NCBI GenBank assembly: GCA_947632385.1
Contig: CANRPD010000018.1
Span: 1-37,710, forward strand
Source of the DNA: an uncultured Clostridia bacterium
GTDB taxonomy: Bacteria; Bacillota; Clostridia; Oscillospirales; Acutalibacteraceae
Direction: 5' to 3'
DNA length: 37,710 bases
Shown: positions 1,126 to 37,244 of the stretch, piece by piece
Position numbering within the stretch: the stretch's first letter is position 1
Layout: each line of letters begins with the position of its first letter
Notes under the pieces: model-generated
The model's database searches: none
Seen by the model: only the letters and a program-made list of their open reading frames with translations
What the model was told of the DNA's origin: nothing
Position numbers and translations under genes: made by a program

Positions 1126-1219
1126 GCCCGGCCCGCCGTCCGCCGCCCCCAGGCGGCGGACGGCGCCTCCCGCGCAGCGGGAGGCGAGCCGGCGCGCAGC
1201 GCCGGCGGGCGGGCCGGGC
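1126..1219. repeat. Cloverleaf-like hairpin element A
   Basis: An outer stem of 10 to 12 bp (1126-1137 with 1208-1219) encloses three consecutive perfect hairpins. Hairpin 1 has a 12-bp stem, 1136-1147 with 1152-1163, and shares two bases with the outer stem. Hairpin 2 has a 10-bp stem, 1164-1173 with 1177-1186, with a GCA loop. Hairpin 3 has an 8-bp stem, 1188-1195 with 1199-1206, with a GCA loop. It lies between the csp terminator and the glmS promoter, so it is probably not on either main transcript. The same layout recurs at 7943-8035 and 37159-37244 with different sequence. Confidence 0.75.
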
Positions 1220-1223
1220 GGAT

Positions 1224-1252
1224 TTGACAGCAGCAGGCACTGCATATATAAT
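1224..1252 (+). promoter_or_regulatory. Perfect-consensus promoter of glmS
   Basis: TTGACA (1224-1229) and TATAAT (1247-1252) are separated by 17 bp, a full sigma-A consensus. Transcription should start near 1259. The transcript would then open with a 7-bp hairpin (1260-1276), which could protect its 5' end. A leader of about 38 nt leaves no room for a glmS ribozyme. Confidence 0.93.
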
Positions 1253-1296
1253 AAGAGGACCGGGGGCTGCCCCCGGAGAGAGAAGGAGGTTTCGAT

Positions 1297-3135
1297 ATGT
1301 GTGGTATCGTTGGATATGTGGGCCCCAGACAGGCGGCTCCGCTGCTGCTGGAGGGCCTGGAAAAGCTGGAGTACCGGGGATATGATTCCGCGGGACTGGC
1401 GGTGCGGGACGGAGGAGCCCTTCCCCAGATCGTCAAGGCAAAAGGACGCTTGAAGGCCCTGGTGGAAAAGACCAACGGCGGGCTGGCCATGGCGGGCACC
1501 TGCGGCATCGGCCACACCCGGTGGGCCACCCACGGGGAGCCCAGCGAGGGCAACGCACACCCCCACGCCAGCGCCGGTCTGGAAGTGGTGGGGGTGCACA
1601 ACGGCATCATCGAGAATTACCAGGAGCTGAAGGCCAAGCTGGAAAAAAGCGGGTACACGTTCACCTCTCAGACGGACACGGAGGTGGCGGTGGACCTGAT
1701 CGACTACTACTACAAAAAGTACCAGGAGGGGCCGGTGGGGGCTCTGGGCCGGGCCATGACCCGGCTGCGGGGGTCCTATGCCCTGGCGGTACTGTTCGCC
1801 CAGCACCCGGAGGAAATCTATGTGGCCCGGAAGGATAGCCCCCTCATCGTGGGGGTGGGGGAGGACGAGACGGTGATCGCCTCGGATGTGCCCGCCATTT
1901 TGCAGTACACCCGCAGCGTGTACTACATCGGGAACTTGGAGATCGGGCGGCTGAAGGGCGGCGAGGCGGCCTTTTTCAACATCGACGGAGAGGAGATCGA
2001 AAAAGAGGTCACCCAGATCGAATGGGACGCCCAGGCGGCGGAAAAGGGCGGGTTCGAGCACTTCATGATGAAGGAGATCCACGAGCAGCCCCGGGCCGTG
2101 CGGGATACCCTGAACGCCTATATCCGGGAGGGGAAGATCGACTTTTCCGAAGTGGGCCTCACCCGGGAGGAGATGGCCGCCATTGGGCAGATCACCGTGG
2201 TGGCCTGCGGCTCCGCCTATCACGTGGGGATGGCCGCCCAGTATGTCATCGAGGACCTGGCGCGGCTGCCCGTGCGGGTGGAGCTGGCCAGCGAGTTCCG
2301 GTACCGCAAGCCCATTTTGGGGCCGGGGTCGCTGGTGATCGTGGTGAGCCAGTCCGGGGAGACGGCGGACAGTCTGGCCGCCCTGCGGGAGGCCAAGGAG
2401 CAGGGAGCGCCCACCCTGGGGATCGTCAACGTGGTGGGGTCCTCCATCGCCCGGGAGGCGGACAAAGTCCTGTATACCCTGGCGGGGCCGGAGATCGCCG
2501 TGGCCACCACGAAGGCCTACAGCACGCAGCTCATCGCCTGCTATCTGCTGGCGGTGGAGCTGGGCCGGGCCCGGGGCCTGGTGGACGACGGGGAATACGC
2601 CCGACTGCTGGCGGAGCTGGAGGCCCTGCCGGGGAAGATGGAGAAGATCCTGGAGGACAAGGAGCGTATCCAGTGGTTCGCCTCCAAATTCTCCAACGCC
2701 CGGGACGTGTTCTTCATCGGGCGGGGCATCGACTATGCCTGCAGCCTGGAGGGGAGCCTGAAGATGAAGGAGATCAGCTATATCCACTCCGAGGCGTATG
2801 CCGCCGGGGAGCTGAAGCACGGCACCATCAGCCTTATCGAGGACGGGGTGCTGGTGGTGGGGGTGCTGACCCAGGAGGAGCTGTTCGGGAAGACCCTGAG
2901 CAACCTGGTGGAGGTCAAGAGCCGGGGGGCCTACCTGATGGGCCTGACCGCCTACGGGCATTACAGCATCGAGGACACGGTGGATTTCGCCGTGTATATC
3001 CCCCGGACGGACCAGCGCTTTGCCACCAGCCTGGCGGTGATCCCCCTGCAGCTGATGGGCTATTATCTCAGCGTGGCCCGGGGACTGGATGTGGATAAGC
3101 CCCGGAACCTGGCCAAGAGCGTCACCGTGGAATGA
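1297..3135 (+). CDS. glmS: Glutamine--fructose-6-phosphate aminotransferase (isomerising)
   Basis: This enzyme converts fructose 6-phosphate and glutamine to glucosamine 6-phosphate, the first step toward UDP-GlcNAc for peptidoglycan. The protein has 612 residues, the normal length. It opens MCGIVGYVG, so the processed N-terminal Cys2 is the glutaminase nucleophile. The class II amidotransferase domain covers about residues 1-230, and two SIS sugar-isomerase domains follow. The isomerase segment with ELKHG and the family-typical C-terminus KPRNLAKSVTVE are present. The start is fixed by AAGGAGG at 1283-1289. Many Gram-positive glmS genes carry a self-cleaving ribozyme in the leader; here the leader is far too short. 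The GH16 gene follows 16 bases later and is probably co-transcribed. Confidence 0.98.
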   Translation: MCGIVGYVGPRQAAPLLLEGLEKLEYRGYDSAGLAVRDGGALPQIVKAKGRLKALVEKTNGGLAMAGTCGIGHTRWATHGEPSEGNAHPHASAGLEVVGVHNGIIENYQELKAKLEKSGYTFTSQTDTEVAVDLIDYYYKKYQEGPVGALGRAMTRLRGSYALAVLFAQHPEEIYVARKDSPLIVGVGEDETVIASDVPAILQYTRSVYYIGNLEIGRLKGGEAAFFNIDGEEIEKEVTQIEWDAQAAEKGGFEHFMMKEIHEQPRAVRDTLNAYIREGKIDFSEVGLTREEMAAIGQITVVACGSAYHVGMAAQYVIEDLARLPVRVELASEFRYRKPILGPGSLVIVVSQSGETADSLAALREAKEQGAPTLGIVNVVGSSIAREADKVLYTLAGPEIAVATTKAYSTQLIACYLLAVELGRARGLVDDGEYARLLAELEALPGKMEKILEDKERIQWFASKFSNARDVFFIGRGIDYACSLEGSLKMKEISYIHSEAYAAGELKHGTISLIEDGVLVVGVLTQEELFGKTLSNLVEVKSRGAYLMGLTAYGHYSIEDTVDFAVYIPRTDQRFATSLAVIPLQLMGYYLSVARGLDVDKPRNLAKSVTVE

Positions 3136-3151
3136 GCAAAGGAGAGACGAG

Positions 3152-4141
3152 ATGAACGGCAGGATCTGCACCCGGCTGCTGGCGGGGGCCATCGTCCTGG
3201 GGCTGTTGGCCGGCTGTGGGGGAACCACCGGCGGGCCGGCGCCGGAAACGAGCCCCGCCCCCACCGCGGCACCCAGCTCAGCGATTTCATCCAACATCCC
3301 AGAGGAGGCGCCCACCATGACCCCTGAACCCGAAAAGGCCACCGGCTTCGAGTACGACCGGGAGACCCTCACCTATGAGCTGGTGTGGAGCGACGAATTC
3401 GACACGGACGGCGCTCCGGACCCCGAAAAGTGGGGGTATGACCGGGGCGGCAACGGCTGGGGCAACCACGAGCTGCAGTATTACTCCAGCGAGAACGTCA
3501 CCGTGGCGGACGGGAAGCTGATCATCGAGCTGCGGCAGGAGGCCGAAGAGGGCCCCCAGCAGTACACCTCCGCCCGGCTGGTGTCCCGGAACAAGGGGGA
3601 CTGGACCTATGGGAAGATCGAGGTGCGGGCCAAGCTGCCCGCCGGACGGGGCACCTGGCCGGCCATTTGGATGATGCCTACCCGGTCGGTGTACGGCAGC
3701 TGGCCGCTGTCCGGGGAGATCGACATCATGGAGCACGTGGGGTTCGACCCGGAGGTGATCCACGCCACCGTGCACAACGGGGCGTATCACGGCGGGGACG
3801 GCAAGGGGGATTCTCGGCCCGTGGAGGGCGTGTGCGAGGACTTCCACACCTATGCGGTGGAGTGGCTGCCCGACCGGCTGTGCTTCTCGGTGGACGGGGA
3901 GGCGCTGTTCGAGTATGACCCCCATGCATATGCCCAGAGACCCACGGCCCAGGAGTGGCCCTATGACCAGGACTTTTATCTCATCCTCAACGTGGCCTTT
4001 GGCGGCGACTGGGGCGGCGCCCAGGGGGTGGACCCGGCGTGCCTGCCCGCCCGGATGGAGGTGGAGTATGTCCGGGTGTACCAGAGCCCGGAGATCCGGG
4101 CGCTGACGGGACAGGGGACCGACGCGCCCGCCCAGGAGTGA
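3152..4141 (+). CDS. GH16 family beta-glucanase lipoprotein
   Basis: This is a predicted surface-anchored endo-beta-glucanase of glycoside hydrolase family 16 (laminarinase/lichenase-like), 329 residues. A lipoprotein signal peptide ends in the lipobox LLAGC, with Cys at about residue 22. A Pro/Thr/Ser-rich linker runs to about residue 65 and the catalytic domain fills the rest. The GH16 signature GEIDIMEHVG supplies nucleophile E189, assisting D191 and acid/base E194. Conserved WPAIWMMP and the C-terminal VEYVRVYQ strand also fit the family. The ATG is preceded by AAAGGAGAG (3138-3146). It sits 16 bases after glmS, likely on the same transcript and ending at the 4170-4211 terminator. The exact beta-glucan linkage cannot be told from sequence. 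Confidence 0.93.
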   Translation: MNGRICTRLLAGAIVLGLLAGCGGTTGGPAPETSPAPTAAPSSAISSNIPEEAPTMTPEPEKATGFEYDRETLTYELVWSDEFDTDGAPDPEKWGYDRGGNGWGNHELQYYSSENVTVADGKLIIELRQEAEEGPQQYTSARLVSRNKGDWTYGKIEVRAKLPAGRGTWPAIWMMPTRSVYGSWPLSGEIDIMEHVGFDPEVIHATVHNGAYHGGDGKGDSRPVEGVCEDFHTYAVEWLPDRLCFSVDGEALFEYDPHAYAQRPTAQEWPYDQDFYLILNVAFGGDWGGAQGVDPACLPARMEVEYVRVYQSPEIRALTGQGTDAPAQE

Positions 4142-4169
4142 CGCGGAAGACAAATCAAAAAAGGAACAG

Positions 4170-4211
4170 GAAAAGCTCCTCACTGCCGGTCCGGCAGCGG
4201 GGAGCTTTTTG
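4170..4211. terminator. Terminator shared by convergent genes
   Basis: Complementary arms (4171-4179 with 4201-4208) enclose an inner CTGCCGG/CCGGCAG hairpin and are followed by a T-run on the plus strand. It ends the glmS-GH16 unit. The hairpin overlaps the last codons of the opposite-strand ogt gene (stop at 4180), and plus-strand A residues upstream would give that gene a T-run too. Confidence 0.85.
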
Positions 4212-4698
4212 CAGGGGTGCGTTCAAATTCCAGGAGCCAGCGCTTGCGCTCCACCCCGCCGGCATAGCCGGTGAGGGCACCGCCTGCCCCCACCACCCGG
4301 TGACAGGGGATCAGGATGGAGAGGGGATTGCGGCCCACCGCCGTGCCCACTGCCCGGGGCGCGGAGCCCAGCCGGGCGGCCAGGTCCCCATAGGTGACGG
4401 TGGCGCCGTAGGGGATCTCCAGGAGGGCGGCCCAGACCCGCTGCTGGAAGGGGGTGCCCTCCGGGGCCAGGGGGAGGGTGTGGGGATCCGGTCGGTGGCC
4501 GGCGAAGTAGTGTTCCAGCCAGCGCACCGCCGCCTGCAGCGGGGGCGTGTCTCCGGGGGGACAGTCCTGCAGGCGGAAGGGGCCGCCGAAATACCGCTGG
4601 CCCGCCAGCCACAGGCCCCGGAGGGTCTGGTCGTCCCCCGCCAGGGTCAGGATGCCCAGGGGAGAGGGGACCTCCCGGAGGAAGAGGGGGGCGGCCAC
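4180..4698 (-). CDS. ogt: Methylated-DNA--protein-cysteine methyltransferase
   Basis: This is a suicide DNA-repair enzyme that moves the methyl group from O6-methylguanine to its own cysteine. It has 172 residues, normal for Ogt-type proteins. The active-site motif is ILIPCHRVVG with acceptor Cys132. The upstream helix-turn-helix and arginine-finger region TYGDLAARLGSAPRAVGTA and the following GRNP are also intact. The start is a GTG only two bases after the stop codon of the LysR gene, with a poor ribosome site, so translation is probably coupled to lysR. Pairing of ogt with a LysR regulator has no obvious functional logic and may be simple co-transcription. Confidence 0.95.
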   Translation of the reverse strand: MAAPLFLREVPSPLGILTLAGDDQTLRGLWLAGQRYFGGPFRLQDCPPGDTPPLQAAVRWLEHYFAGHRPDPHTLPLAPEGTPFQQRVWAALLEIPYGATVTYGDLAARLGSAPRAVGTAVGRNPLSILIPCHRVVGAGGALTGYAGGVERKRWLLEFERTPAKSSPLPDRQ

Positions 4699-4700
4699 GG

Positions 4701-5606
4701 TCAGTCTGCGGCCTTGGCGCCGCTGTTGGCCCGGTAGAGCTCCACCAGGTCGGGGAGGAGGTCCACCCGGGCAAAGTCCTTGTTGTACACCAGGCTGATC
4801 TCCCGGACCATGTTCAGGTTCTCGATGGGCAGGGCCACCAGCTTGCCCTTGCGGAGCTCGTCCATGCAGGCGCTTTGGGGCAGCACGGAGATGCCCATGC
4901 CCTTGCGGATGAGGTCCTTGATGGTGGAGATGTTGTCCACCTCGATGGACACGTTGAAGTCCTCGATGCTCTGGCCCACGCTGGTGAGGGAGGCCTCGAA
5001 CAGCTGGCGGGTGGCGGAGGAGGGCAGGCGGAGGATCAGCTTTTCGTCCTTGAGCTCGTTGAGGGTGACGCTGGTGCGGCCGGCCAGGCGGTGGGCGGGA
5101 TCCAGGACGCAGAGGAGGCAGTCGTTGTCCAGGGTGCGGTAGGTGAAGGAGGACCCGGGACGGCGGCTTTCCACCACGGCGATGTCGATCTCGTAATTTT
5201 CCAACATCCCATAAAGATTTTTTATAGTATCTGTTATTATGGTAACATTCAAATTATCTTTCTCAGAGGCGTACTTGGCCAGGATCTCCGTCATTAGATT
5301 GCTTTCGGAGGTGTGGGTGATGCCCACCCGGATCCGGGCCAAATGGCGCTTGCGGTCGCTGATATCCGCCCGCATTTTTTGCTCCATGGCCTTCAGGCGG
5401 CGGGCATACCGCAGGGCGATCTCGCCCTCCGGGGTCAGGTTGAAATTGCCTTTGCCGCGCTTGAAGAGGCGCGCGCCCAGTTCCTTTTCCAGCTGCAGGA
5501 TATGGTGGCTGACGGCGGGCTGGGTCAGCTCCAGGGCCTCCGCTGCGCGGGTGAAATTCCGATGCTCTGCTACGGCCAGCAGAGTCTCCAGTTTTGCGTC
5601 CAGCAT
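4701..5606 (-). CDS. LysR-family transcriptional regulator
   Basis: This is a 301-residue LysR-type regulator of normal length. A winged helix-turn-helix covers about residues 1-60 (MLDAKLETLLAVAEHRNFTRAAEAL, with the signature TQPAVSHHI), and a periplasmic-binding-protein-like effector domain covers about residues 88-295. The ATG at 5606 is chosen because GGAGG (plus-strand 5611-5617) precedes it closely; a 19-residue extension upstream is not family-like. It is divergent from the antiporter at 5721. A dyad in the intergenic region overlaps the antiporter promoter, so autoregulation and control of the antiporter-mgtC unit are the likely roles. The effector is unknown. Confidence 0.93.
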   Translation of the reverse strand: MLDAKLETLLAVAEHRNFTRAAEALELTQPAVSHHILQLEKELGARLFKRGKGNFNLTPEGEIALRYARRLKAMEQKMRADISDRKRHLARIRVGITHTSESNLMTEILAKYASEKDNLNVTIITDTIKNLYGMLENYEIDIAVVESRRPGSSFTYRTLDNDCLLCVLDPAHRLAGRTSVTLNELKDEKLILRLPSSATRQLFEASLTSVGQSIEDFNVSIEVDNISTIKDLIRKGMGISVLPQSACMDELRKGKLVALPIENLNMVREISLVYNKDFARVDLLPDLVELYRANSGAKAAD

Positions 5607-5621
5607 GGGGTACCTCCTGAG

Positions 5622-5649
5622 ATAATAAAAATTTTTGTGAGAAGTACAA
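5622..5649 (-). promoter_or_regulatory. Promoter of the LysR gene
   Basis: Read on the minus strand, TTGTAC (5644-5649) and TATTAT (5622-5627) are separated by 16 bp. The match is moderate and the position is right for the start codon at 5606. Confidence 0.6.
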
Positions 5650-5650
5650 A

Positions 5651-5686
5651 ATATGATTTGCATTTATCCGAAAAAAATCATATCAT
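5651..5686 (+). promoter_or_regulatory. Antiporter promoter overlapping a LysR-type dyad
   Basis: TTGCAT (5658-5663) and TATCAT (5681-5686) have a 17-bp spacer. A perfect inverted repeat, ATATGATTT (5651-5659) and AAATCATAT (5675-5683), straddles the spacer with 15 bases between arms. The symmetry, AT content and divergent setting fit a LysR-type operator. The arms overlap both promoter boxes. Confidence 0.75.
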
Positions 5687-5720
5687 AAAGGACAAGATTT
5701 GACAAGGGGGTTTGCGAGGA

Positions 5721-7163
5721 ATGTCGAATTTTCTTTCCGATTTTCTGTCCGGGCAGTCCGGCTCTGCGGCGGTGATCTTTTCCATTGCGGTGATGCTGCT
5801 GGCGGGCTTCCTCATGACCCGGGTGACCAAGCGGCTGAAGCTGCCCAATGTCACGGGGTACATCCTGGCGGGCATCCTGCTGGGGCCCTACTGTCTCAAC
5901 GCAGTGCCGGATTTCGTGGTGGAGGGCGCGGGCTTTCTGCCGGACATCGCCCTGGCGTTCATCGCCTTTTCCGCCGGGCAGTACTTCCGCCGGGAGACCC
6001 TGCGGGGCAACGGCTGCAAGGTCCTGGTGGTGACGCTGTTCGAATCTCTGGCGGCCAGCGTCCTGGTGTTCGTCCTCACGGACTGCATCCTGGGGCTGGA
6101 TCTGGCGTTCTCCGCGGTGCTGGCGGCCCTGGCGGCTGCCACGGCCCCGGCCTCCACCATGATGACCATCCGGCAGACGGGGGCCAAGGGCGACTTTGTG
6201 GACACCCTGCTGCAGGTGGTGGCATTGGACGACGTGGTGGGCCTGGTGGCGTACAGCGTGGCCATTGCGGTGGCGCTGGCCTCGGTCTCCGGGGCGGGGT
6301 TCCAGGTATCCACCCTGGCGCTGCCCATTTTGCAGAACCTGCTGGTGATGGCCTTAGGGGGACTGTTCGGGCTGGTCATGAAGTGGACCATCCAGAACCG
6401 GCACTCCTCCGACAACCGGCTGATCATCGCGGTGGCGCTGCTGTTCTCCTTCTGCGGCATCTGCGCGGCGGTGGATATCTCGCCGCTGCTGGGGTGCATG
6501 GCCATGGGCACGGTGTACATCAACCTGACCCAGGATGACAAGCTCTTTAAGCAGTTGGGGTATTTCAGCCCGCCGCTGCTGCTGCTGTTCTTCGTGCGGT
6601 CGGGGCTCTCTTTCGATCTGGGGGCGCTGCTGACCCCTGCGGGGTCCATTGGGCCCACGCCGCTGCTGGCGGTGGGGGTGGGGTACTTTGCCGCCCGGCT
6701 CATCGGGAAATATCTGGGGGCGTTTTTCGGGTGCCTCTCGGTGCACAAGTCCCCCAAGGTCCGCAATTACCTGGGCCTGGCCCTGGTGCCCCAGGCGGGG
6801 GTGGCCATCGGCCTGGCGGCGCTGGGGGCCCGCACCCTGGGGGGCGAGACCGGCTCGGCGCTGGAGACCATCATCCTGGCGTCCAGCGTGCTCTATGAGC
6901 TCATCGGTCCCGGCTGCGCCAAGCTGGCGCTGTATCTGTCGGGGTCCTATTCCAACCAGCTGGAGGAGATCGCCCCCGTGGAGGAGACCGACGCCCAGGG
7001 GGAGCCCAAGACCCAGCTGGAGCTGCTCATCGAGCGGATCCAGAAGATCCAAGAGGAGCTGCCCAGCCACGCGGTCAGCGAGGAAGAGCGGGCCTTTACC
7101 GAGGCCGCCGAGGAACAGTATCGCGCCACGGTGCCCTTCCGTATGGGCTTTAGGGGCCGCTGA
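5721..7163 (+). CDS. Cation:proton antiporter, CPA2 family
   Basis: This is a 480-residue membrane antiporter of the CPA2 (KefB/NapA-like) family, expected to exchange Na+ or K+ for protons. About 12 to 13 hydrophobic segments fill residues 15-420. Typical features are LPNVTGYILAGILLGP early in the protein and the core motif ALDDVVGL with D170-D171, the acidic pair that binds the ion in electrogenic CPA2 exchangers. A charged tail of about 60 residues follows and lacks a TrkA-N or TrkA-C domain. The ATG at 5721 has AAGGGGG (5704-5710) 10 bases upstream; a TTG nine bases earlier is less likely. The mgtC-like gene follows 22 bases later, so they form one operon under the LysR-overlapped promoter. 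Confidence 0.92.
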   Translation: MSNFLSDFLSGQSGSAAVIFSIAVMLLAGFLMTRVTKRLKLPNVTGYILAGILLGPYCLNAVPDFVVEGAGFLPDIALAFIAFSAGQYFRRETLRGNGCKVLVVTLFESLAASVLVFVLTDCILGLDLAFSAVLAALAAATAPASTMMTIRQTGAKGDFVDTLLQVVALDDVVGLVAYSVAIAVALASVSGAGFQVSTLALPILQNLLVMALGGLFGLVMKWTIQNRHSSDNRLIIAVALLFSFCGICAAVDISPLLGCMAMGTVYINLTQDDKLFKQLGYFSPPLLLLFFVRSGLSFDLGALLTPAGSIGPTPLLAVGVGYFAARLIGKYLGAFFGCLSVHKSPKVRNYLGLALVPQAGVAIGLAALGARTLGGETGSALETIILASSVLYELIGPGCAKLALYLSGSYSNQLEEIAPVEETDAQGEPKTQLELLIERIQKIQEELPSHAVSEEERAFTEAAEEQYRATVPFRMGFRGR

Positions 7164-7185
7164 GCGCCGAAAGGAGGAACTTTCC

Positions 7186-7914
7186 ATGACATCCTATATC
7201 GATCCCATCGCTGCCCTGCTGGGGCCGTGGTCGGCCCAGCTAACGGCCGGAGCTGTCCTGCTGCGGATGGGCATGTCCCTGGCCCTGTCGGCCATCATCG
7301 GCTGGGAACGGTCCAGCAAGCGGCATTCGGCGGGGCTGCGCACCTTCATTTTGGTGTGCCTGGCCTGCACCACGGCCATGCTGCTGGACACCTATCTCTC
7401 TGCGGCCAGCGGTTCGGGGCTGTACCTCATCTCTGCCGCGGCGGTGATCTCCGTCTCGGTGATCTCTGTCAACTCCACGCTGTTCAGCTCCCGCAGTCAG
7501 ATCAAGGGGCTGACCACCTCGGTGGGGCTGTGGGCCTGCGGCATCCTGGGGCTGACGCTGGGGGGCGGGTATTACACCGTGACCCTGGCGGCCTTCGTGG
7601 TGCTGATGTGCGGGCTGGCGTTGTTCCCCTCGGTGGAGGTGTTTCTCAAGAACCGGTCCAACCATTTCGAGGTCCATTTGGAGCTGAAGAACAGCCAGTA
7701 CCTCCAGGATTTCGTCACCACCATCCGGAGGCTGGGTCTGACCATCGACGACATCGAACTGAATCCAGCTTATGTCAACTCCGGCCTCAGTGTGTATTCC
7801 ATCGCGATTTCCATCAGCAGCCAGGAATTGCGGAAATATAAGACCCATTCGCAGATCATCGAGGCGCTGGCGACCTTGGATTATGTCTACTACATCGAGG
7901 AGATGCGCGCCTGA
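7186..7914 (+). CDS. MgtC/SapB family membrane protein
   Basis: This is a 242-residue MgtC/SapB-type protein. The N-terminal half has four or five membrane segments and carries the family signature GWERSSKRHSAGLRTFILVC (about residues 39-58). The C-terminal part (about 160-242) is soluble and resembles the ACT-like domain of MgtC proteins. In pathogens MgtC is linked to low-magnesium survival and modulation of membrane ATPase activity; its biochemical role in gut commensals is not settled. The start has a strong AAGGAGG (7171-7177). Cotranscription with the antiporter suggests a joint role in ion or membrane-potential homeostasis, which is an inference. Confidence 0.93.
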   Translation: MTSYIDPIAALLGPWSAQLTAGAVLLRMGMSLALSAIIGWERSSKRHSAGLRTFILVCLACTTAMLLDTYLSAASGSGLYLISAAAVISVSVISVNSTLFSSRSQIKGLTTSVGLWACGILGLTLGGGYYTVTLAAFVVLMCGLALFPSVEVFLKNRSNHFEVHLELKNSQYLQDFVTTIRRLGLTIDDIELNPAYVNSGLSVYSIAISISSQELRKYKTHSQIIEALATLDYVYYIEEMRA

Positions 7915-7942
7915 GTGTTCGGTGCAGATCGGGCCTGAGGTC

Positions 7943-8035
7943 CCCGCCTCGCCGCCGGTCCGCGCAGCGGACCGGCGCGGAACGCCCCGAAGGGGCGGGC
8001 CGGCCGGGCGGCAGAGCCGCCCGGAGCGAGGCGGG
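7943..8035. repeat. Cloverleaf-like hairpin element B
   Basis: An outer 10-bp stem (7943-7952 with 8026-8035) closes three perfect hairpins. The first has 10 bp with a GCA loop (7954-7963 with 7967-7976). The second has 6 bp with a GAA loop (7983-7988 with 7992-7997). The third has 9 bp with an AGA loop (8004-8012 with 8016-8024). It sits between the convergent mgtC-like and GH1 genes. Topology and size match the element at 1126-1219, but the stem sequences are different. Confidence 0.78.
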
Positions 8036-8164
8036 AGACCGGAAGGCGCCGAAAAGGGTCGGTGGTGCTGGGCAGCCGGCCCGGAATTGGAACATGCCGG
8101 CGGGAGGCCGGAGCCGGGTACACCCATGCAAAACGGTACCTGCCCTGAATTTATGAAACAGAAG

Positions 8165-8188: not shown

Positions 8189-8205
8189 TCCGATTTCTGT
8201 GGGGA

Positions 8206-10459
<2,254 letters not shown>

Positions 10460-28507: not shown

Positions 28508-28570
28508 GATTCCTGTATGGGTGGATCAGGGGAATGAGACGCCCCATTTTTCGGAGAGAAGGCGGCAATC

Positions 28571-30065: not shown

Positions 30066-30257
30066 ATGAAGAACAATTCCGTTATGGTCCCCGAGGCCAA
30101 GGAAGCGATGGAGCGTTTTAAGATGGAAGCCGCCAACGAGGTGGGCGTCAGCCTGAAGCAGGGCTACAACGGCGAACTGACCTCCCGTCAGGCCGGCTCC
30201 GTGGGTGGACAGATGGTCAAGAAAATGATCGAGAGCTACGAGAAGGGCCTGAAGTAA
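30066..30257 (+). CDS. Alpha/beta-type small acid-soluble spore protein
   Basis: This is a 63-residue SASP. Such proteins coat DNA in the developing spore, protect it from UV and heat, and are degraded at germination. The family core is visible: EVGVSLKQGYNGELTSRQAGSVGGQMVKKMIE. The second conserved part includes the GGQMVKKMI ending. It has AAGGAGAG before the ATG. A possible sigma-G-like promoter (a CATA-type -35 near 29998 and an AATACGTA-like -10 near 30025) is only suggestive. It ends at a strong bidirectional terminator. This gene marks the organism as a spore former. Confidence 0.95.
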   Translation: MKNNSVMVPEAKEAMERFKMEAANEVGVSLKQGYNGELTSRQAGSVGGQMVKKMIESYEKGLK

Positions 30258-30268
30258 CCCAACAGCCC

Positions 30269-30302
30269 GAAAACGCCCTGCCAAGCCTGGCAGGGCGTTT
30301 TC
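30269..30302. terminator. Bidirectional terminator after the SASP gene
   Basis: Perfect 15-bp arms (30269-30283 with 30288-30302) begin with A-runs and end with T-runs, so both the SASP transcript and the convergent BofC-like transcript can end here. Confidence 0.93.
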
Positions 30303-30734
30303 CTATTCATAATCCTCCAGCACAGCCTTCACTGCAGACATCCCCGTGACCCGCACGCCCTGTTCCAGGTATTCCCGGTCTGCCTGGGGCAGCAGGTACA
30401 CCTGGATGGGTGCGGTGAGGAAAGGTTCGCTCTCCCCGGCCCGAAAGACCCCCACCTGCCCCCGGTACAGCGTGATGAGATACGTCTCCCGGTCCGCTGC
30501 CGGCGTCTCGGAGGCGGGCGGCGCGGTTGATCCCACAGGCTGGGTGGGTTTTTCGCTGGTTTCTTGACTTGCGGCGGCATTTGGACTATAATAGCTGGCG
30601 TAGGCCTGCTGGGCGGTGTTTTCCAGGTCCCGCTTCAGGCCCCGTGCGCTCCAGGCCGTTGCCATTGCAATGGCGGCGACCAAGAGCAGCCATACAGTGG
30701 ATCGCTTTACAGTACCGGCATTGCCGTGTTTCAT
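30303..30734 (-). CDS. BofC-like membrane-anchored protein
   Basis: This is a 143-residue protein with one N-terminal membrane helix (about residues 14-30), a Pro/Thr/Ala-rich linker and a small C-terminal domain. That domain (about residues 85-143: YLITLYRGQVGVFRAG, LPQADREYLEQGV, ending VLEDYE) follows the pattern of the BofC C-terminal domain, which in Bacillus sits in the forespore intermembrane space and restrains SpoIVB, hence pro-sigma-K processing. It lacks BofC's N-terminal domain, so the exact role is not assured. The ATG at 30734 follows a near-perfect ribosome site, GGAGGTGATCC. The gene is convergent with the SASP gene and divergent from the penicillin-binding protein gene. Confidence 0.72.
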   Translation of the reverse strand: MKHGNAGTVKRSTVWLLLVAAIAMATAWSARGLKRDLENTAQQAYASYYSPNAAASQETSEKPTQPVGSTAPPASETPAADRETYLITLYRGQVGVFRAGESEPFLTAPIQVYLLPQADREYLEQGVRVTGMSAVKAVLEDYE

Positions 30735-30811
30735 GGGGATCACCTCCGGGATAGTATGTGCCATTTTCTGGCGGGTATACTGTCTCTGGTTCAGTTGAAA
30801 GGAGGCTGCTT

Positions 30812-33400
30812 ATGCCGCGTAAGGAAGATATGAACAAGTACACCACCGTCTACGACCGACCCGCTTCCCAGCGCACCGAGGGCGAGCTGGCCCAGTCCGC
30901 CGGGGCTACGGCCCGGACCGTGGGCGGCATGGTGTGGAAATTGATCAAGACCGTCTTTTGGGTGGCAGCCATCACCGGGGTGCTGGTGTTTTTGTCCGTG
31001 GCTGCCACCATCCTCAGCTATCGGAACGCGGAGCCCCCCAACATCTCTGCCATGAAGCTCAGCTACTCCAGCATCGTCTATCTGGATGACACGGAGGGCA
31101 ACGCCACGGAATATATGTCCCTGTACGCCAACGAAAACCGGGTGTGGGTGCCCCTGGAGGACATCCCCATCTATATGACCACCGCCCAGATCGCCATTGA
31201 GGATCACCGCTTCATGGAGCACCAGGGCGTGGACTGGAAAGGGACCCTGGGCGCCGTGTACAAGCTGGCCACCGGCATGGAGGGCGGCGGCGGTTCGACG
31301 TTGGACCAGCAGCTCATCAAGAACATCACCGGTGAGAACCGGGTGAGCATCAAGCGCAAGGTCAAGGAGATCTTCACCGCCCTGAACCTGGAGGCCGGAT
31401 ATACCGACGAGACCGGCGTGCACCACGCGGGCTATACCAAGGAGGAGATCCTGGAGGCCTACCTCAACGTGGTCAACTACGGCGGCCAATGCCAGGGCGT
31501 GGAGGCTGCCGCCAACTACTACTTCAACAAATCCATCGGTCAGTGCACCCTGGCGGAGTGCGCCATCATCGCGGGCATCACCCAGAACCCCTACCAGTTC
31601 AACCCCATGCTCTTCCCCGATGAGTGCAAGGAGCGCGCCGAGGACGTGCTGTTCCGCATGAACGAGCTGTCCCAGCAGGGGCTGCTGTCCACCCGGCTGA
31701 CCACCCCCATCACCGAGAGCGAATACCGCGCCGCCCTGGCGGAGCTGGAGCAGATCGACTTTTTGGGTGTGGAGGATGAGGCTTCCAGTGCGGACGCCCC
31801 GGCCGACGATACCGATCCCCGGGTGTGGAACTGGTATATCGACCTCATGTTTGACGATGTGGTCAGCGACCTGATGGACAAGTACGGCTACAGCTACGAC
31901 CTGGCGGTGGATATGATGTACAATGCCGGCTTGGAGATCCACTGCGCCATGGACGCGGGTTTCCAGCGGGACATGGAGAATTTCTTCCTCACCCGCACCG
32001 ACGTCCTGGCCGAGGATCCCGCCATCGAGCTGGGCTTCTATATGATGGACCCCTACACCGGCCGGGTCATGGCCGTGGTGGGCAGCCGGCAGGAGCGCAA
32101 ACAGGTCCGCCTGATGAACTTTGCCACCGATGCCCGCCGGCAGTCCGGCTCCGCCATCAAGCCCGTCAGCCCCTACGCGGTGGGCCTCATCACCGGCGCC
32201 ATCACCTATTCCACCGTCCTCAAGGACCAGCCCCTGCCCGATTATCCCGACAACGGTCCCAGCAACTTCTCCGGCGTGTATACCGAATTCATGAACGTGG
32301 ACGCCGCCATCGAGGAGTCCCAGAACGCCCCGGCGGCCTGGCTGTGCAACGAGGTCACCCCCGAGGCCTGCTATGACTTCCTGGTCAATTCCCTGCACTT
32401 CACCACCCTGGAGGAGGAGGACTCCCACAGCATCGCCGCCATGGCTCTGGGCGGCCAGAGCTGGGGCGTCACCGTCCGGGATCTGGTGTCCGGCTATCAG
32501 ATCTACGCAAACGGCGGGATCTACCACAAGCCCATCACCTACTACTACGTCCGGGACCACGAGGGCAACGTCATCCTGGACAACCGGGCGGACGTCAACC
32601 CCGGCGAGCAGGTCATGTCCCTGGAGAACGCCACGGTGATGAACAAGCTGCTCCAATGCCCGGTCCACGGCGACCGGGGCACCCTCACCGCCTTCTTCAA
32701 CGACATGAGCATCCCCGTCTTTGGCAAGACCGGCACCACCGACGACCGCTACGACCTGTGGACCGTCCTGGGCACGCCCTTCTGCGTGATGGGCCTGTGG
32801 AACGGCTACGAATACAACGACGAGCTCACGGATTCCAACTCCAGCCGCCGCACTCTCCGGGCCCTCACGGATTACCTCCTGGAGCACTACGACTGGTCCT
32901 CCAGCGGGGAGTGGGTCCTCAGCGAGAACGTGGTGTCCCGCACCTTCTGCCGGGACAGCGGCAAGCTGGCCGGCCCCAACTGCACGGACAACGACATCGG
33001 CTGGTACGCCACGGACAACATGCCCGGCACCTGCAACGGCACCACGGACCACGTCACCGGGAAGAACAATTCCCCTTCTCCGTCCCCGTCTCCCTCCGTG
33101 TCGCCTTCTCCTTCGGTGTCGCCCTCTCCGTCTGTGTCGCCGTCGCCCTCGGTGGAGCCCTCGCCCTCCGTGCAGCCCACGCCCAGTCTGGAGCCTCCCG
33201 TTTCCTCCGAACCCCAGCCCCCTGTCTCCAACACGCCCGAACCCCCGGTCTCCTCGGAACCGGAGCCTCCGGAATCCACCGAGCCCGAGCCGCCTGTTTC
33301 CTCCGAGCCCGAACCGCCTGAGCCCCCGGTGTCCTCCGAGCCCTCGGTCCCGGATCCCGGACCCGGCCCGGAAGAGGGTCCCGGCGGCCCGGAGGGTTGA
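30812..33400 (+). CDS. Class A penicillin-binding protein (PBP1a-type)
   Basis: This is an 862-residue bifunctional peptidoglycan synthase. One membrane helix (about residues 44-68) is followed by a GT51 transglycosylase domain with catalytic E130 (EDHRFMEHQG) and GGSTLDQQLIKN, then a transpeptidase domain: S447-A-I-K450, S503-Q-N505 and K639-T-G. The family arrangement is complete. The C-terminal tail (about 752-862) is a Ser/Pro repeat that shifts into Pro/Glu/Ser/Val; such tails often interact with other cell-wall proteins, but this is an inference. The ATG at 30812 has AAAGGAGG. It may be co-transcribed with lysC, whose start is 85 bases after the stop. Confidence 0.96.
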   Translation: MPRKEDMNKYTTVYDRPASQRTEGELAQSAGATARTVGGMVWKLIKTVFWVAAITGVLVFLSVAATILSYRNAEPPNISAMKLSYSSIVYLDDTEGNATEYMSLYANENRVWVPLEDIPIYMTTAQIAIEDHRFMEHQGVDWKGTLGAVYKLATGMEGGGGSTLDQQLIKNITGENRVSIKRKVKEIFTALNLEAGYTDETGVHHAGYTKEEILEAYLNVVNYGGQCQGVEAAANYYFNKSIGQCTLAECAIIAGITQNPYQFNPMLFPDECKERAEDVLFRMNELSQQGLLSTRLTTPITESEYRAALAELEQIDFLGVEDEASSADAPADDTDPRVWNWYIDLMFDDVVSDLMDKYGYSYDLAVDMMYNAGLEIHCAMDAGFQRDMENFFLTRTDVLAEDPAIELGFYMMDPYTGRVMAVVGSRQERKQVRLMNFATDARRQSGSAIKPVSPYAVGLITGAITYSTVLKDQPLPDYPDNGPSNFSGVYTEFMNVDAAIEESQNAPAAWLCNEVTPEACYDFLVNSLHFTTLEEEDSHSIAAMALGGQSWGVTVRDLVSGYQIYANGGIYHKPITYYYVRDHEGNVILDNRADVNPGEQVMSLENATVMNKLLQCPVHGDRGTLTAFFNDMSIPVFGKTGTTDDRYDLWTVLGTPFCVMGLWNGYEYNDELTDSNSSRRTLRALTDYLLEHYDWSSSGEWVLSENVVSRTFCRDSGKLAGPNCTDNDIGWYATDNMPGTCNGTTDHVTGKNNSPSPSPSPSVSPSPSVSPSPSVSPSPSVEPSPSVQPTPSLEPPVSSEPQPPVSNTPEPPVSSEPEPPESTEPEPPVSSEPEPPEPPVSSEPSVPDPGPGPEEGPGGPEG

Positions 33401-33485
33401 CCGCCGGACGGCCTGCGGCATATGCTGAAAGCAGGGTCGTCCTTCGCCGGACGGCCGATGAATGAAGAAAGGTTCTGATCGTTTT

Positions 33486-34697
33486 ATGGCACTGATCGTG
33501 CAGAAGTTTGGCGGGACCTCCGTGGCGGATGCCCAGCGCATCGCCAATGTGGCGGACATCGTCACCCAGGCCTACCGGGCCGGGAACGATGTGATCGCCG
33601 TGGTCTCCGCCCAGGGCGACACCACCGACGACCTGGAGGCCAAGGGCCGGGAGATCGACCCCAGCCCCTCCCGCCGGGAAATGGACGTGCTGGTGGCCGC
33701 CGGGGAACAGATCTCCGCTGCCCTGCTGTCCATGGCCATCCAGCGCATGGGTTTTCCGGCCGTGTCGCTGCTGGGCTGGCAGGTGGGCCTGGAGACCACC
33801 TCCGCCCACGGTGAGGCCCGGATCCGCCGGGTGCGGGAGGACCGCATCCGCAAGGAACTGGACCAGCGGCGCATCGTGGTGGTGGCCGGCTTCCAGGGCA
33901 TCGACCGTTCCGGCGATGTCACCACCATCGGCCGGGGCGGCTCCGACACCAGCGCGGTGGCCATCGCCGCCGCCATGCATGCGGACCTCTGTCAGATCTA
34001 CACCGATGTGGACGGCGTCTACACCGCCGACCCCCGGAAGGTCCCCGGTGCCCGCAAGCTGGACACCATCTCCTACGACGAAATGCTGGAGCTGGCGACC
34101 CTGGGGGCCCAGGTGCTCCACAACCGCTCTGTGGAAATGGCCAAAAAATACAACATCCAGTTGGAAGTGCTTTCCAGCCTCACCCGCAAGCCGGGGACCA
34201 TCGTAAAGGAGAAACGGAACATGGAAAAGATGCTCATCAGCAGCGTGACAAAGGACGAGAATTCCGCCCGGATCTCGGTGATCGGCGTGCCGGACCGGCC
34301 CGGTCTGGCGTTTAAGATCTTCTCCTGCCTGGCGGCCAAGGGCGTCAACGTGGACGTGATCCTCCAGTCCATCGGCCGCAACGGCACCAAGGATATCAGC
34401 TTCACCGTCACCACGGATAAGATGGAAGAGGCCATCGGCCTGCTGCAGGAGCATCTGGAGACCTGGGGCGCCACCTCCATCGTCTCCGACGAAAACGTGG
34501 CCAAGGTGTCCATCGTGGGCGCGGGCATGGAGACCCATCCTGGCGTGGCCGCCCAGATGTTTGAGGCCCTGTTCGGCGAAAACATCAACATCCAGATGAT
34601 CTCCACCAGTGAGATCAAGGTCACGGTGCTGGTGAACAAAAAGGATGCCGACCTGGCGGTGCGGGCCATCCATGAAAAATTTTTCGGCGCCGACTGA
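33486..34697 (+). CDS. lysC: Aspartate kinase
   Basis: This enzyme phosphorylates aspartate, the entry to lysine, threonine, methionine and diaminopimelate, the last for cell walls. It has 403 residues, the length of monofunctional Gram-positive kinases. Catalytic signature KFGGTS is at residues 7-12; VVSAQGDTTD and GRGGSDTSAVAIAAA also fit. Tandem ACT domains (about residues 260-403, e.g. VGAGMETHPGVAAQMFEAL) should bind lysine or threonine as feedback effectors. The ATG at 33486 starts MALIVQKFGG, as in homologues; an in-frame ATG at 33462 adds a non-homologous peptide. AAGAAAGG lies 13 bases upstream, rather far. A direct repeat, CGCCGGACGGCC (33402-33413 and 33445-33456), lies in the gap after the PBP gene. 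Confidence 0.97.
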   Translation: MALIVQKFGGTSVADAQRIANVADIVTQAYRAGNDVIAVVSAQGDTTDDLEAKGREIDPSPSRREMDVLVAAGEQISAALLSMAIQRMGFPAVSLLGWQVGLETTSAHGEARIRRVREDRIRKELDQRRIVVVAGFQGIDRSGDVTTIGRGGSDTSAVAIAAAMHADLCQIYTDVDGVYTADPRKVPGARKLDTISYDEMLELATLGAQVLHNRSVEMAKKYNIQLEVLSSLTRKPGTIVKEKRNMEKMLISSVTKDENSARISVIGVPDRPGLAFKIFSCLAAKGVNVDVILQSIGRNGTKDISFTVTTDKMEEAIGLLQEHLETWGATSIVSDENVAKVSIVGAGMETHPGVAAQMFEALFGENINIQMISTSEIKVTVLVNKKDADLAVRAIHEKFFGAD

Positions 34698-34739
34698 CCT
34701 TTCCTGGACACCCAGACATTGCACACGGTTGCGCGGTCT

Positions 34740-34781
34740 AAAATCACCCCCGGCGGGCACACTGATGCCGGGGGTGATTTT
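34740..34781 (+). terminator. Terminator of lysC
   Basis: Perfect 15-bp arms (34740-34754 with 34767-34781) have A and T edges. The 3' arm contains GGGGGTGAT, which may also serve as the ribosome site of the small gene starting at 34784. Confidence 0.9.
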
Positions 34782-34783
34782 CA

Positions 34784-34975
34784 GTGAACGAGCCGTTTTA
34801 CTGGAGCGGCGGGCCGGTGATGGACCCGCTGCCCATGGGGATGTATCCCATGCTGGACCTGGATCTGCGCTACTACCCGGAGGAGATCCGGGAGGCGCTG
34901 GAGCAGTACCGGGACGAGATCCATTCGGCGGAGGACCTGCGGCGCATCGCGCTGGGTCTGCTGCGCCGGCGTTGA
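34784..34975 (+). CDS. Hypothetical 63-residue protein
   Basis: This short open frame (GTG start) encodes an acidic protein with a Pro/Met/Tyr-rich N-terminal half (PVMDPLPMGMYPMLDLD) and a helical C-terminal half (EEIREALEQYRDEI). No family is recognised, and no signal peptide or membrane helix is seen. The ribosome-site-like GGGGGTGAT five bases upstream is inside the 3' arm of the lysC terminator hairpin, so read-through and translation would be in tension. The helical-looking end suggests a real gene, but length and context leave doubt. Confidence 0.5.
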   Translation: MNEPFYWSGGPVMDPLPMGMYPMLDLDLRYYPEEIREALEQYRDEIHSAEDLRRIALGLLRRR

Positions 34976-35024
34976 GGGGAGGCGGGCAGGGGAGACCTGT
35001 CCGCTTCTTTTTTTGCAAAAAGGG

Positions 35025-35053
35025 TTGCTTTTTCGGCCCAAATGCCGTATAAT
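35025..35053 (+). promoter_or_regulatory. Promoter of tRNA-Leu
   Basis: TTGCTT (35025-35030) and TATAAT (35048-35053) have a 17-bp spacer; the tRNA begins 16 bases after the -10 box. Confidence 0.85.
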
Positions 35054-35068
35054 AACAAGCGGTTTCAA

Positions 35069-35155
35069 GCCGGTGTGTTGGAATTGGCAGACGAGGTGGA
35101 CTCAAAATCCATTGCCAGCGATGGCGTGCGGGTTCAAGTCCCGCCACCGGCACCA
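35069..35155 (+). tRNA. tRNA-Leu (anticodon CAA)
   Basis: This 87-base type II tRNA has a long variable arm. The acceptor stem GCCGGTG pairs with CACCGGC, the anticodon loop CTCAAAA carries CAA (reads UUG), the T loop is GGTTCAAGTCC, and CCA is encoded. It stands alone with its own promoter and terminator. No element remnant is seen beside it. Confidence 0.96.
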
Positions 35156-35159
35156 CTCC

Positions 35160-35203
35160 AGGTGTCCGCAGGGGGGTTCTTTCCCCTGCGAACACCTTTT
35201 TCT
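35160..35203 (+). terminator. Terminator after tRNA-Leu
   Basis: Arms AGGTGT and CGCAGGGG pair with CCCCTGCG and ACACCT across one mismatch, followed by TTTTTCTG. It starts five bases after the tRNA. Confidence 0.9.
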
Positions 35204-35332
35204 GTTTCTGCTTCCCTTGGATCGCCCATCCTTCCGATCATGCGGCTGGACCCCGTTGGTCCAGCTGGCGTGCAGTTTCCGGCAAACCCCAGTACGGAGA
35301 GAAGCAGGAAGGTATCAGATGTGTCCACCCCC

Positions 35333-35379
35333 AAAAAACGCCCCGGTCCCTCCCCTAAAAAGGAGAAAGACCGGGGCGT
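35333..35379 (-). terminator. Terminator of the dehydrogenase gene
   Basis: Perfect 11-bp arms (35338-35348 with 35369-35379) are followed on the minus strand by a six-T run (plus-strand AAAAAA at 35333-35338). It lies just beyond the stop codon at 35385. The stretch 35204-35332 holds nothing I can support. Confidence 0.9.
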
Positions 35380-35384
35380 CCCCC

Positions 35385-36461
35385 TCAAAACACGATGGCC
35401 ACCTTGAGATCCCCATATTTCCCCGACGCGCAGTCAAACGCCTTCTCCCACTCCTCGATGGGGAAGGTCCGGGTGACGACGCCATCCGTCCGCAGGTTGC
35501 CATTGGCGATGTTCTCGATGACGAAGGGATAGCAGTAGGGGCTCAGGTGGGAGCCCAGCACGTCCAGCTCCTTCCGGTCCCCGATGATGGACCAGTCCAC
35601 CGTGGCGGGCTCGCCGAAGACGCTGAACTCCACGAACCGCCCCAGCTTCCGCACCATATTGAGGCCCTGCTGGACGCTGGAGGGATGGCCCGTGGCCTCG
35701 ATGTAGATGTCGCACCCGTACCCCTCCGTCAGGTCCAGCACCTGCTGCACCACATCTTCCTTCCCGGGGTTCATCACCCGGTCCGCGCCGAATTCTTTGG
35801 CCTTCTCCAGCCGGCTGTCGATCATGTCCAGCACGATGAGCTTCGCGGGGTTGTGCATCCGGGCATAGGTCACCATGCCCAGCCCCAGCGTCCCCGCCCC
35901 GGAGATCACCACCACGTCGTCCGGGGTGATCTGCGCCCGGTCCACCGCGTGCTTCGAGCACCCATAGGGCTCGATGAGCAGCGCCTGTTCCAGGGGCAGG
36001 GACTCCGGCACCCGGGAGATCACCGCGGTCTTGGGGTACCGGACGTACTCCGCCATGCCGCCGTTGTTGCCCTTCTGGAACCCAAACGTGGCGTGGGGCT
36101 GGCACATCCAGTACCGCCCGCTCTTGCAGAACCGGCACTCCCCGCAGGGAACGATCTGGTCGGCGGTGATGCGCTCCCCCAGGGAGAACCCCCGCACGTT
36201 TTCGCCCATCTCCACGATGTGCCCCAAAAACTCGTGCCCCGGGATGAACGGCGGCGCCACCCACATGGGCTGCACGCTGTCCCCCCAGAACATGGCGGCG
36301 CCGTGCCAGCACTTCAGGTCCCCGGCGCACACGCCGCAGCCCTCGGTGCGGATGATGATGTCGTCCGGCCCGCACACAGGCGTGGGGTACGACGGCTCAA
36401 AACGGTAGTCGCCCTTTCCATAGGCGACCAGCGCCTTCATGGTCTCCGGAATGTTTCGCAT
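35385..36461 (-). CDS. Zinc-dependent alcohol dehydrogenase, erythritol/threitol-DH-like
   Basis: This is a 358-residue medium-chain, NAD(P)-dependent dehydrogenase. Zinc ligands are visible: C43 in GCGVCAGDL, the PGHE motif, and the structural-zinc loop CGECRFCKSGRYWMC. The nucleotide-binding motif is VVISGAGTLGLGMV. The segment GDLKCWHGAAMFWGD resembles erythritol/L-threitol dehydrogenases, which oxidise four-carbon sugar alcohols. Another polyol, such as sorbitol, is possible. The ATG at 36461 follows GAGGAG. A promoter and a leader hairpin lie immediately upstream. Confidence 0.88.
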   Translation of the reverse strand: MRNIPETMKALVAYGKGDYRFEPSYPTPVCGPDDIIIRTEGCGVCAGDLKCWHGAAMFWGDSVQPMWVAPPFIPGHEFLGHIVEMGENVRGFSLGERITADQIVPCGECRFCKSGRYWMCQPHATFGFQKGNNGGMAEYVRYPKTAVISRVPESLPLEQALLIEPYGCSKHAVDRAQITPDDVVVISGAGTLGLGMVTYARMHNPAKLIVLDMIDSRLEKAKEFGADRVMNPGKEDVVQQVLDLTEGYGCDIYIEATGHPSSVQQGLNMVRKLGRFVEFSVFGEPATVDWSIIGDRKELDVLGSHLSPYCYPFVIENIANGNLRTDGVVTRTFPIEEWEKAFDCASGKYGDLKVAIVF

Positions 36462-36481
36462 GGGATCCGCTCCTCTGTGTG

Positions 36482-36542
36482 CCGCCGCCAACCCGGCGGC
36501 GGTTATTTTTTTTATTGTAGCATACCCCGCCGCCCCCGTCAA
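36482..36542 (-). promoter_or_regulatory. Dehydrogenase promoter and leader hairpin
   Basis: On the minus strand TTGACG (36537-36542) and TACAAT (36514-36519) have a 17-bp spacer, so transcription starts near 36507. The leader opens with an 8-bp GC hairpin (36482-36489 with 36495-36502) placed shortly before the ribosome site. It may protect the 5' end or tune translation. The T-run seen on the opposite strand is just the A-rich start region and not a true terminator. Confidence 0.82.
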
Positions 36543-36596
36543 ACCTCTTGTCCGCGCTCTTTGGACTTTTTCCCGCGGCCACCCGCAAAATCCGTC

Positions 36597-36686
36597 TGTC
36601 AAGGAAACATACTTGTCAAACGCGCGCTTCCAAAACCCGCCTATTTCCTGCACAAACTCCGTTTGTCAAGTCTATTTGCTTGTCAA
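36597..36686 (-). promoter_or_regulatory. Paired TTGACA repeats upstream of dehydrogenase promoter
   Basis: TGTCAA (TTGACA on the minus strand) occurs at 36597-36602, 36614-36619, 36664-36669 and 36681-36686. Each pair is exactly 17 bp apart, and the two pairs are 67 bp apart. None has a good -10 box at 17 bp, so they look like protein-binding repeats rather than promoters, set 55 to 145 bp upstream of the dehydrogenase -35 box. Confidence 0.55.
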
Positions 36687-36828
36687 TTTTCCCTCCTCCG
36701 CCGGTTTCGGCCCCATTCCGCCAAATGTAAACAATTTGTGAATTTTTTCCATTTGTTTCCCTTTTGGGGGAAACTTACCCCCTTTTAAAGGGGGATATAT
36801 GGGAGGACTTTTTGTCCGTGCCCGGACT

Positions 36829-36943
36829 GGCCAAGCCGCGGTCCGTGGCCGGACTGGCCGTGTCGCGGGGCGCGCGGTCCCCGCGCGGACGCCTACTGGA
36901 AAAAAGTGGACCGTCGCGCCCGGCACCTGGCGGTGCAGGCCAG
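36829..36943 (+). repeat. GC-rich mosaic repeat, copy A
   Basis: Bases 36829-36900 (72 bp) are identical to 37262-37333. The following block, 36891-36943, matches 37444-37496 with only two differences. The unit contains hairpins (for example 36841-36854, and CGCGGGG/CCCCGCG inside 36864-36885). It is a complex repeat and not a simple tandem array. Confidence 0.9.
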
Positions 36944-37158
36944 TGTCGCGGGCCAGCGCCGACAAACCGAGAGTGGGCCGTCGCGCCCGTTAGTTCCCGG
37001 TTTCCGCAAGTCTCCGCTGCGAACCTCCCCAATTTGCACCAATCCCGCCAAAATGGCTCTTTTCGCAGCTCCAACCCGCTCAATTCCCCCTTTGAACGTG
37101 CCGGAACCCGACACTGCCCCACCAAAAATTCCATCTCGCCCGCCCCACCCACCTCCCC

Positions 37159-37244
37159 CGTCTCGCCACCTGCTCCGCAGGCGCTTTTGCTCCGCAAAAG
37201 GGAGGGATGGGGTCGAAGTTCAGACCCCATCCCTCCGCGAGACG
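37159..37244. repeat. Cloverleaf-like hairpin element C
   Basis: An 8-bp outer stem (37159-37166 with 37237-37244) closes three perfect hairpins. The first has 5 bp with a TCC loop (37169-37173 with 37177-37181). The second has 7 bp with a TCC loop (37184-37190 with 37194-37200). The third has 14 bp with an 8-base loop (37201-37214 with 37223-37236). The topology is the same as at 1126-1219 and 7943-8035, though the sequence is unrelated and the third loop is larger. Confidence 0.72.

Follow-up and report, generated by a model that had tools for sequence, protein, structure and literature searches.

The window analysed here, 37,710 nt from an uncultured Clostridia bacterium of the Acutalibacteraceae (positions 1 to 37,710 of contig CANRPD010000018.1), carries three cloverleaf-shaped palindromic elements, and similar figures recur across its source genome. 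The layout is shared, related copies lie at different places, and the arms drift in both letters and length while remaining paired. We favour, at a probability of about one half, the reading that the elements are nested DNA palindromes resembling miniature inverted-repeat transposable elements (MITEs), in which pairing is kept mainly by template switching during replication, and that they are not structured RNAs. With an outer inverted repeat around three smaller ones, one strand could fold as a four-way junction in which nearly every base is paired. Pairing could then be maintained at the DNA level by template switching across an arm, one side being copied onto the other so that the arm is homogenised and its loop perhaps inverted. 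The copies may formerly have been spread by some enzyme and may now be mostly passive; a transcribed role would not be required.

Fold and number of the elements

On either strand, the DNA at 1126-1219, 7943-8035 and 37159-37244 is predicted to fold into an outer stem that closes three hairpins, as a first-pass annotation of the window had drawn it; at the third locus the outer stem extends to 37158-37245. Folding energies for 1126-1219, 7943-8035 and 37158-37245 are -93.2, -85.1 and -58.5 kcal/mol, with z-scores of -7.2, -7.6 and -9.2, and 0 of 200 shuffles were equally stable. The outer stem measures about 11-12 bp at the first locus (loops CCCA, GCA and GCA), 10 bp at the second (GCA, GAA and AGA) and 8-9 bp at the third (TCC, TCC and GAAGTTCA), which is a plus-strand copy of a group here called the CCGTCTC subfamily. 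Triloops make up seven of the nine loops; the annotation was right that they dominate and had listed six. Its description of the hairpins as perfect holds for most arms and fails for the middle arm of 7943-8035, which is broken by a 2x2 internal loop.

Across 437,710 of the 1,962,478 b of the source genome (the window and 20 further stretches), we found 38 cloverleaves with a script that looks for at least three adjacent hairpins closed by an outer stem and demands near-perfect stems. Ten dinucleotide shuffles of whole stretches gave 0, 1, 2, 2, 3, 3, 1, 1, 2 and 1 figures, ten shuffles within 500-bp blocks gave 2, 2, 4, 1, 2, 6, 1, 2, 2 and 2, and a mirror-repeat control gave 6. Loci of other organisms, 116 in all with 879,353 b, yielded 6 figures, against 5 in one shuffle. 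The G+C content of the sampled DNA (62%) and the position of some copies between convergent genes might invite an explanation by chance palindromes in G+C-rich DNA or by ordinary terminators. However, the 38 figures compare with 0-6 in the 20 shuffles; 100,000 b of the genome G026, at 60% G+C, held no figure; no T-run occurs at any of the three window loci; and every gene context is represented. We consider this explanation scarcely credible.

Sixteen of the 38 elements lie between tandem genes, eight between convergent and seven between divergent ones, with seven unclear, which is similar to the background of 84, 38 and 42. The gene finder is crude and 15 of the 38, 7943-8035 included, overlap its open reading frames (ORFs) by at least 10 bases, so the term intergenic is backed for 23. 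Elements span about 65-105 bp, the junction has few or zero unpaired bases in many of them, and many have in common a T-rich middle arm (GCTTTT..AAAAGC). GNA or TNC triloops cap 26 of 45 arms in elements outside the CCGTCTC subfamily, compared with 20 of 87 other hairpins (Fisher p 1e-4, on data that are not independent). At the gathering threshold of Rfam, only two tRNAs matched in the window and nothing matched at the three loci, which agrees with the earlier view that no named class fits; nor was a report of these repeats recognised in the parts of the open-licence PMC full text that were available.

Kinship among copies and pairing of the arms

The CCGTCTC subfamily accounts for 11 of the 38 elements, is embedded in a longer repeat mosaic, and has at least 41 BLAST matches in the source genome (40 of 52 candidates were scored). 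Among the other 27, 16 have a match to a further element at E ≤ 1e-4, and 11 still do at E ≤ 1e-6; when pairs were shuffled with the fold kept, any match was found for 3.9 and 1.6 of the 27, respectively. The element at 1126-1219 is 79% similar across 77 nt to L007:10350-10441 and also has a match at E ≤ 1e-6. The remaining 11 of the 27 share only the fold, being without a sequence relative among the other sampled elements; 7943-8035, which has none in the sample at E ≤ 1e-4, is one of them. The proposal that fold and not sequence is conserved therefore stands for these 11, and does not extend to the 16 with sequence relatives, 1126-1219 among them, or to 37158-37245. MITEs would have related copies at unrelated places, ending at an inverted repeat. 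This pattern was seen for 16 of the 27 (for 18, both 200-nt flanks are without a match in the rest of the sample) but not for the 11 without relatives, and the CCGTCTC copies are embedded in their larger mosaic. A lenient BLAST search that linked 30 of 31 elements was discarded: it also linked 45 of 93 shuffled elements and 53 of 93 shuffled with the fold kept. Because such links form between shuffled elements as well, we rely on the test at E ≤ 1e-4 and 1e-6.

Many of the elements could have had separate origins, with template switching in G+C-rich spacers repeatedly making nested palindromes without descent or movement. This would suit the 11 of 27 that have no sequence relative, and the sharp differences in element number between sister species of similar G+C. 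It does not account for the 16 that do have relatives or for a subfamily with at least 41 matches, nor would such a process obviously yield three arms every time, so that we think separate origins decidedly improbable.

Pairing is best judged on copies found by sequence, because the finder demands near-perfect stems and counts made on its output are biased. Requiring the middle arm and the outer end to match with at most one substitution left 36 CCGTCTC copies, in which the 5' strand of arm 3 takes 26 forms. The 33 distinct arm-3 segments form 11.4 pairs on average, 377 of 381 being Watson-Crick (99.0%), whereas 1,056 chimeras joined from halves of different copies and put through the same stem search form 7.1, with 7464 of 8635 Watson-Crick (86.4%). 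This control supersedes an earlier one in which stems were re-paired without re-optimisation (98.7% for own arms versus 55.4%), and it bears out the claim that paired bases change together. L016:17120 and the window copy at 37158, for example, differ by three changes in arm 3, each mirrored on the opposite side. Over arms 1 and 3 together, 706 of 716 pairs are Watson-Crick, and the mismatches are eight A-C and two G-T; four of the eight A-C mismatches represent a single inherited CACCTGC..GCAGGCG state. In the chosen alignment A4, which is finder output and carries its ascertainment bias, both partners have changed in 31 of 43 pairs (shuffles give 17.8), and two-sided cells outnumber one-sided ones by 86 to 10. 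One comparison set consisted of 16 chosen elements (13 from the source genome and 3 from the genome G022), mostly picked for the T-rich middle arm and oriented by weak lenient-BLAST links.

Published work describes template switching that homogenises arms and inverts spacers in yeast (PMC8604942) and that creates and maintains hairpins (PMC8794818). By these accounts, template switching can yield paired changes without selection. It fits several features of the elements: arms that pair almost perfectly while their letters drift and their lengths vary, loops that are inverted, and placement without regard to the orientation of genes. Selection on structure, one of the explanations offered in the first-pass annotation for the paired changes, is not demonstrated: the mismatches have no clear one-strand G-T bias, one sister copy is partly decayed, and the alternative mechanism can also make paired changes.

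Relatives in other genomes and surroundings in the window

In the genus, represented by 29 genomes, three sister species carry the figure: G022 with 10 figures in 280 kb, G027 with 9 in 116 kb and G006 with 3 in 67 kb, counted at a threshold of 28 bp and not 26. These densities are not fair samples because several stretches were picked for an element match, and some of the figures are probably chance. Nine other species had 0 figures in about 270 kb, of which G026 makes up 100 kb. One element lies at orthologous positions in G006 and G027, where the flanks are 87% and 81% identical. Inspection by eye shows a matched double change in one outer pair, an intact copy in G006 and partly broken arms in the G027 copy. 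A different locus of G027, L076:4787-4893, holds a four-arm form of the figure with loops TGT, AAA, TCC and AGC.

No empty site was found by synteny, the compared regions being too diverged or rearranged, a gap to which we return below. The spacer between cspA and glmS in G022, the closest relative, holds other repeats and no cloverleaf, so insertion and loss are indistinguishable at that site. Among the contents of this spacer (L054:1790-2260) is a hairpin repeat of another kind, present several times and with GTA loops. Beyond the genus, two copies whose middle arm reads CTTCTCC occur in G167, which belongs to a different genus of the family. A search with model R1 across 250 family genomes gave matches in at least two, the source genome and G167; since at most 17 candidates were scored per genome, the misses carry little weight. 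In nine further genomes of the family, sampled by one stretch apiece (148,665 b in total), no figure was seen. Among viral contigs, one match to an element was found, without a cloverleaf, and none to the element of Anaerotruncus colihominis described next; phages, queried with a single element, gave no match, and the one partial match among plasmids, which lies on a plasmid of A. colihominis, covers 38% of the query.

In A. colihominis JM4-15 (G029; L199-L228), a repeat of about 160 bp consists of two cloverleaves in tandem and has at least 36 matches across the genome (40 of 77 candidates scored). No BLAST link connected three of its elements with any in the source genome, even at lenient settings. 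The second cloverleaf covaries, with 8 pairs changed on both sides compared with 2.4 in shuffles, and its further pair types are not above shuffles (325 of 500); covariation in the first is not clearly above shuffles. In several arms, AAA and TTT loops sit on the same conserved stems. One alignment used 18 of 23 B places, after dropping L205 (the same as L201), L208 +, L209:2663 and two L224 places (wrong matches), and the other used 17 of 17. Many copies have TATAAT-like direct repeats at both ends, and L325:6157-6241 is a cloverleaf of yet another sequence.

Within the window, the placements given by the first-pass annotation (after a terminator, between convergent genes and in a gene-free region) are all as described. 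The element at 1126-1219 lies 87 nt 3' of one ORF, after the terminator-like hairpin of that gene, and 77 nt 5' of another; from their sequences we take the two to be cspA-like and glmS-like, respectively; a TTGACA-N17-TATAAT motif (1224-1252) begins directly downstream of it. The element at 7943-8035 sits between convergent ORFs (6649-7914 on the plus and 8206-9621 on the minus strand). That at 37158-37245 is embedded in an ORF-poor stretch (36800-37710) where short repeats form a mosaic and no gene is obvious, and a similar mosaic surrounds other CCGTCTC copies. The related GCA-loop hairpin noted at 184-206 is present (183-207), as part of a two-arm figure with a 6-bp outer stem (162-217). 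A stretch resembling this figure is present at about 400-470. By eye, the G+C-rich contig start (1-480) contains a stretch of about 240 bp twice, carrying the two-arm GCA hairpin figure.

Weighing the readings against known systems

So, are the cloverleaves RNAs? A structured RNA held by selection on pairing, whether a leader, a small RNA or a stabiliser of mRNA, would produce paired changes, and the A. colihominis element offers further points in its favour. Its left end is TGNTATAAT-like and resembles an extended -10 element. In a left-flank set of 21 (from 30 loci, 2 without a left end, 6 repeat-flanked, and L217 removed by hand), a -35-like hexamer (at least 4 of 6) lies 16-18 nt before the TATAAT-like left end in 12, at exactly 17 nt in 10 of these; in 71 other windows the count averages 3.1 and never exceeds 7. 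A second, smaller peak lies at 24 nt (6 of 21). Such spacing would place the element at a transcript-start position, either inserted into promoters or as a leader. In 13 of the 21 flanks, a start codon with a Shine-Dalgarno-like motif follows 87-360 nt downstream, a count for which no control was run. Yet if one strand were selected as RNA, G-T should outnumber A-C there; wobble pairs are rare on either strand and follow no consistent one, which would speak against RNA, on counts that are small and related. In the second A. colihominis cloverleaf, where G-T outnumbers A-C by 12 to 4, eight of the 12 are in two decayed copies. Added to the indifference to gene orientation in the source genome, the lack of an Rfam match at the loci, the partly decayed sister copy in G027 and the first A. 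colihominis cloverleaf, which is not clearly above shuffles, this makes a structured RNA improbable. Of the three possibilities raised for the window (structured RNA, MITE- or REP-like repeat, protein-binding fold), a repeat-like DNA element fits best.

The main rival is recognition by shape, in which a mobilising enzyme would recognise the four-way fold in single-stranded or extruded DNA, and selection for mobility would keep the shape while the letters drift. Consistent with this, the layout recurs with unrelated letters in A. colihominis, 11 of 27 source-genome elements share the fold alone, and GNA/TNC triloops are enriched; GNA loops form very stable DNA minihairpins, according to work cited in PMC6479982. 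There is also a precedent in the integron integrase, which reads folded attC sites. On the other hand, no enzyme was found: Y1_Tnp has 0 matches in the source assembly (98% complete; the control search was positive in 5 of 14 genomes), and the 10 ORFs beside elements called by the crude gene finder belong to ordinary Pfam families (4) or match none (6). The variable loop base is nearly even (T 27, G 20, A 17 and C 17 at 80 loci among the matches listed, those of the pattern scan for the family hairpin being mostly chance), and AAA and TTT loops outnumber GNA in the A. colihominis alignments. We hold shape recognition to be unlikely. A stricter form is doubtful: a class of mobile DNA in this family and its kin read by shape alone, with an enzyme acting on a near-perfect single-strand four-way junction. 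Under it, the fold would be the only thing in common between elements whose letters are unrelated, be they of this genus or of Anaerotruncus.

Several results weigh against MITE-like palindromes homogenised by template switching. Selection for a cruciform or for a fold of single-stranded DNA would leave a similar pattern, and the changes were compared among copies from one strain, with no mutation event watched. The CCGTCTC middle arm is invariant in 10 of 10 copies chosen by flank and outer stem alone, which arm homogenisation does not predict, and the CCGTCTC mismatch counts are small and related. The 11 elements without sequence relatives may lie outside one family. Signs of movement are also wanting: no obvious target-site duplication is visible by eye at the flanks, the synteny comparison gave no empty site, and no mobilising gene or parent transposon was found, Y1_Tnp being absent and the neighbouring ORFs offering no candidate (other transposase families were not searched genome-wide). 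In A. colihominis, loops besides AAA and TTT are present, mismatches on the putative transcript strand are 23 G-T versus 14 A-C in 1,020 cells, and -35-like hexamers lie at 16-18 nt in 12 of the 21 unique flanks; its element may, judging from sequence, have a role as RNA.

Paired changes are usually taken to prove that an RNA is under selection. The cloverleaves form a natural set, with dozens of members in a genome, whose arms stay paired although wobble pairs are very few. Should the paired changes turn out to arise in single steps accompanied by loop inversion, the set would directly exemplify mutation bias that mimics selection, and would be a caution to those who discover RNAs by covariation. 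If instead an enzyme reads the shape, the elements would be a new kind of mobile element.

Comparison with known systems places the elements near, and apart from, several of them. The repetitive hairpin elements of sponges are likewise dispersed, divergent and intergenic; they are mitochondrial, vary in structure and composition, and are described without a constant four-arm layout in the abstract of PMC2800124. Repetitive extragenic palindromic (REP) sequences, bacterial interspersed mosaic elements (BIMEs) and other palindromes associated with REP-associated tyrosine transposases (RAYTs) also occur as many short palindromic copies. PMC3733652 gives the REP superfamilies GTAG and CGTC and a REP length of 20-40 bp with an unpaired tag. 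Mobilisation of the present elements by a RAYT could appeal to short palindromic repeats in high copy number and to CGTC near the end of one subfamily. Unlike REPs, however, the elements are about 65-105 bp long and have three arms closed by an outer stem, and CGTC lies inside the paired part of that stem. Both REP/RAYT tests were negative: no Y1_Tnp gene was found, and the elements are not palindromes of 20-40 bp that carry GTAG or CGTC as an unpaired tag, so we judge this origin very improbable. The attC site of integrons, found in cassette arrays, is a single long hairpin that is imperfect and contains extrahelical bases. Low sequence conservation and a conserved fold link it to the cloverleaves (attC sites lack conservation of sequence according to PMC2727003), which differ in their four-way junction and few unpaired bases. 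Like MITEs, finally, the elements are short and dispersed, with an outer inverted repeat and a strong fold; unlike MITEs, they are filled over their whole length by three inner palindromes, whose arms drift yet stay paired.

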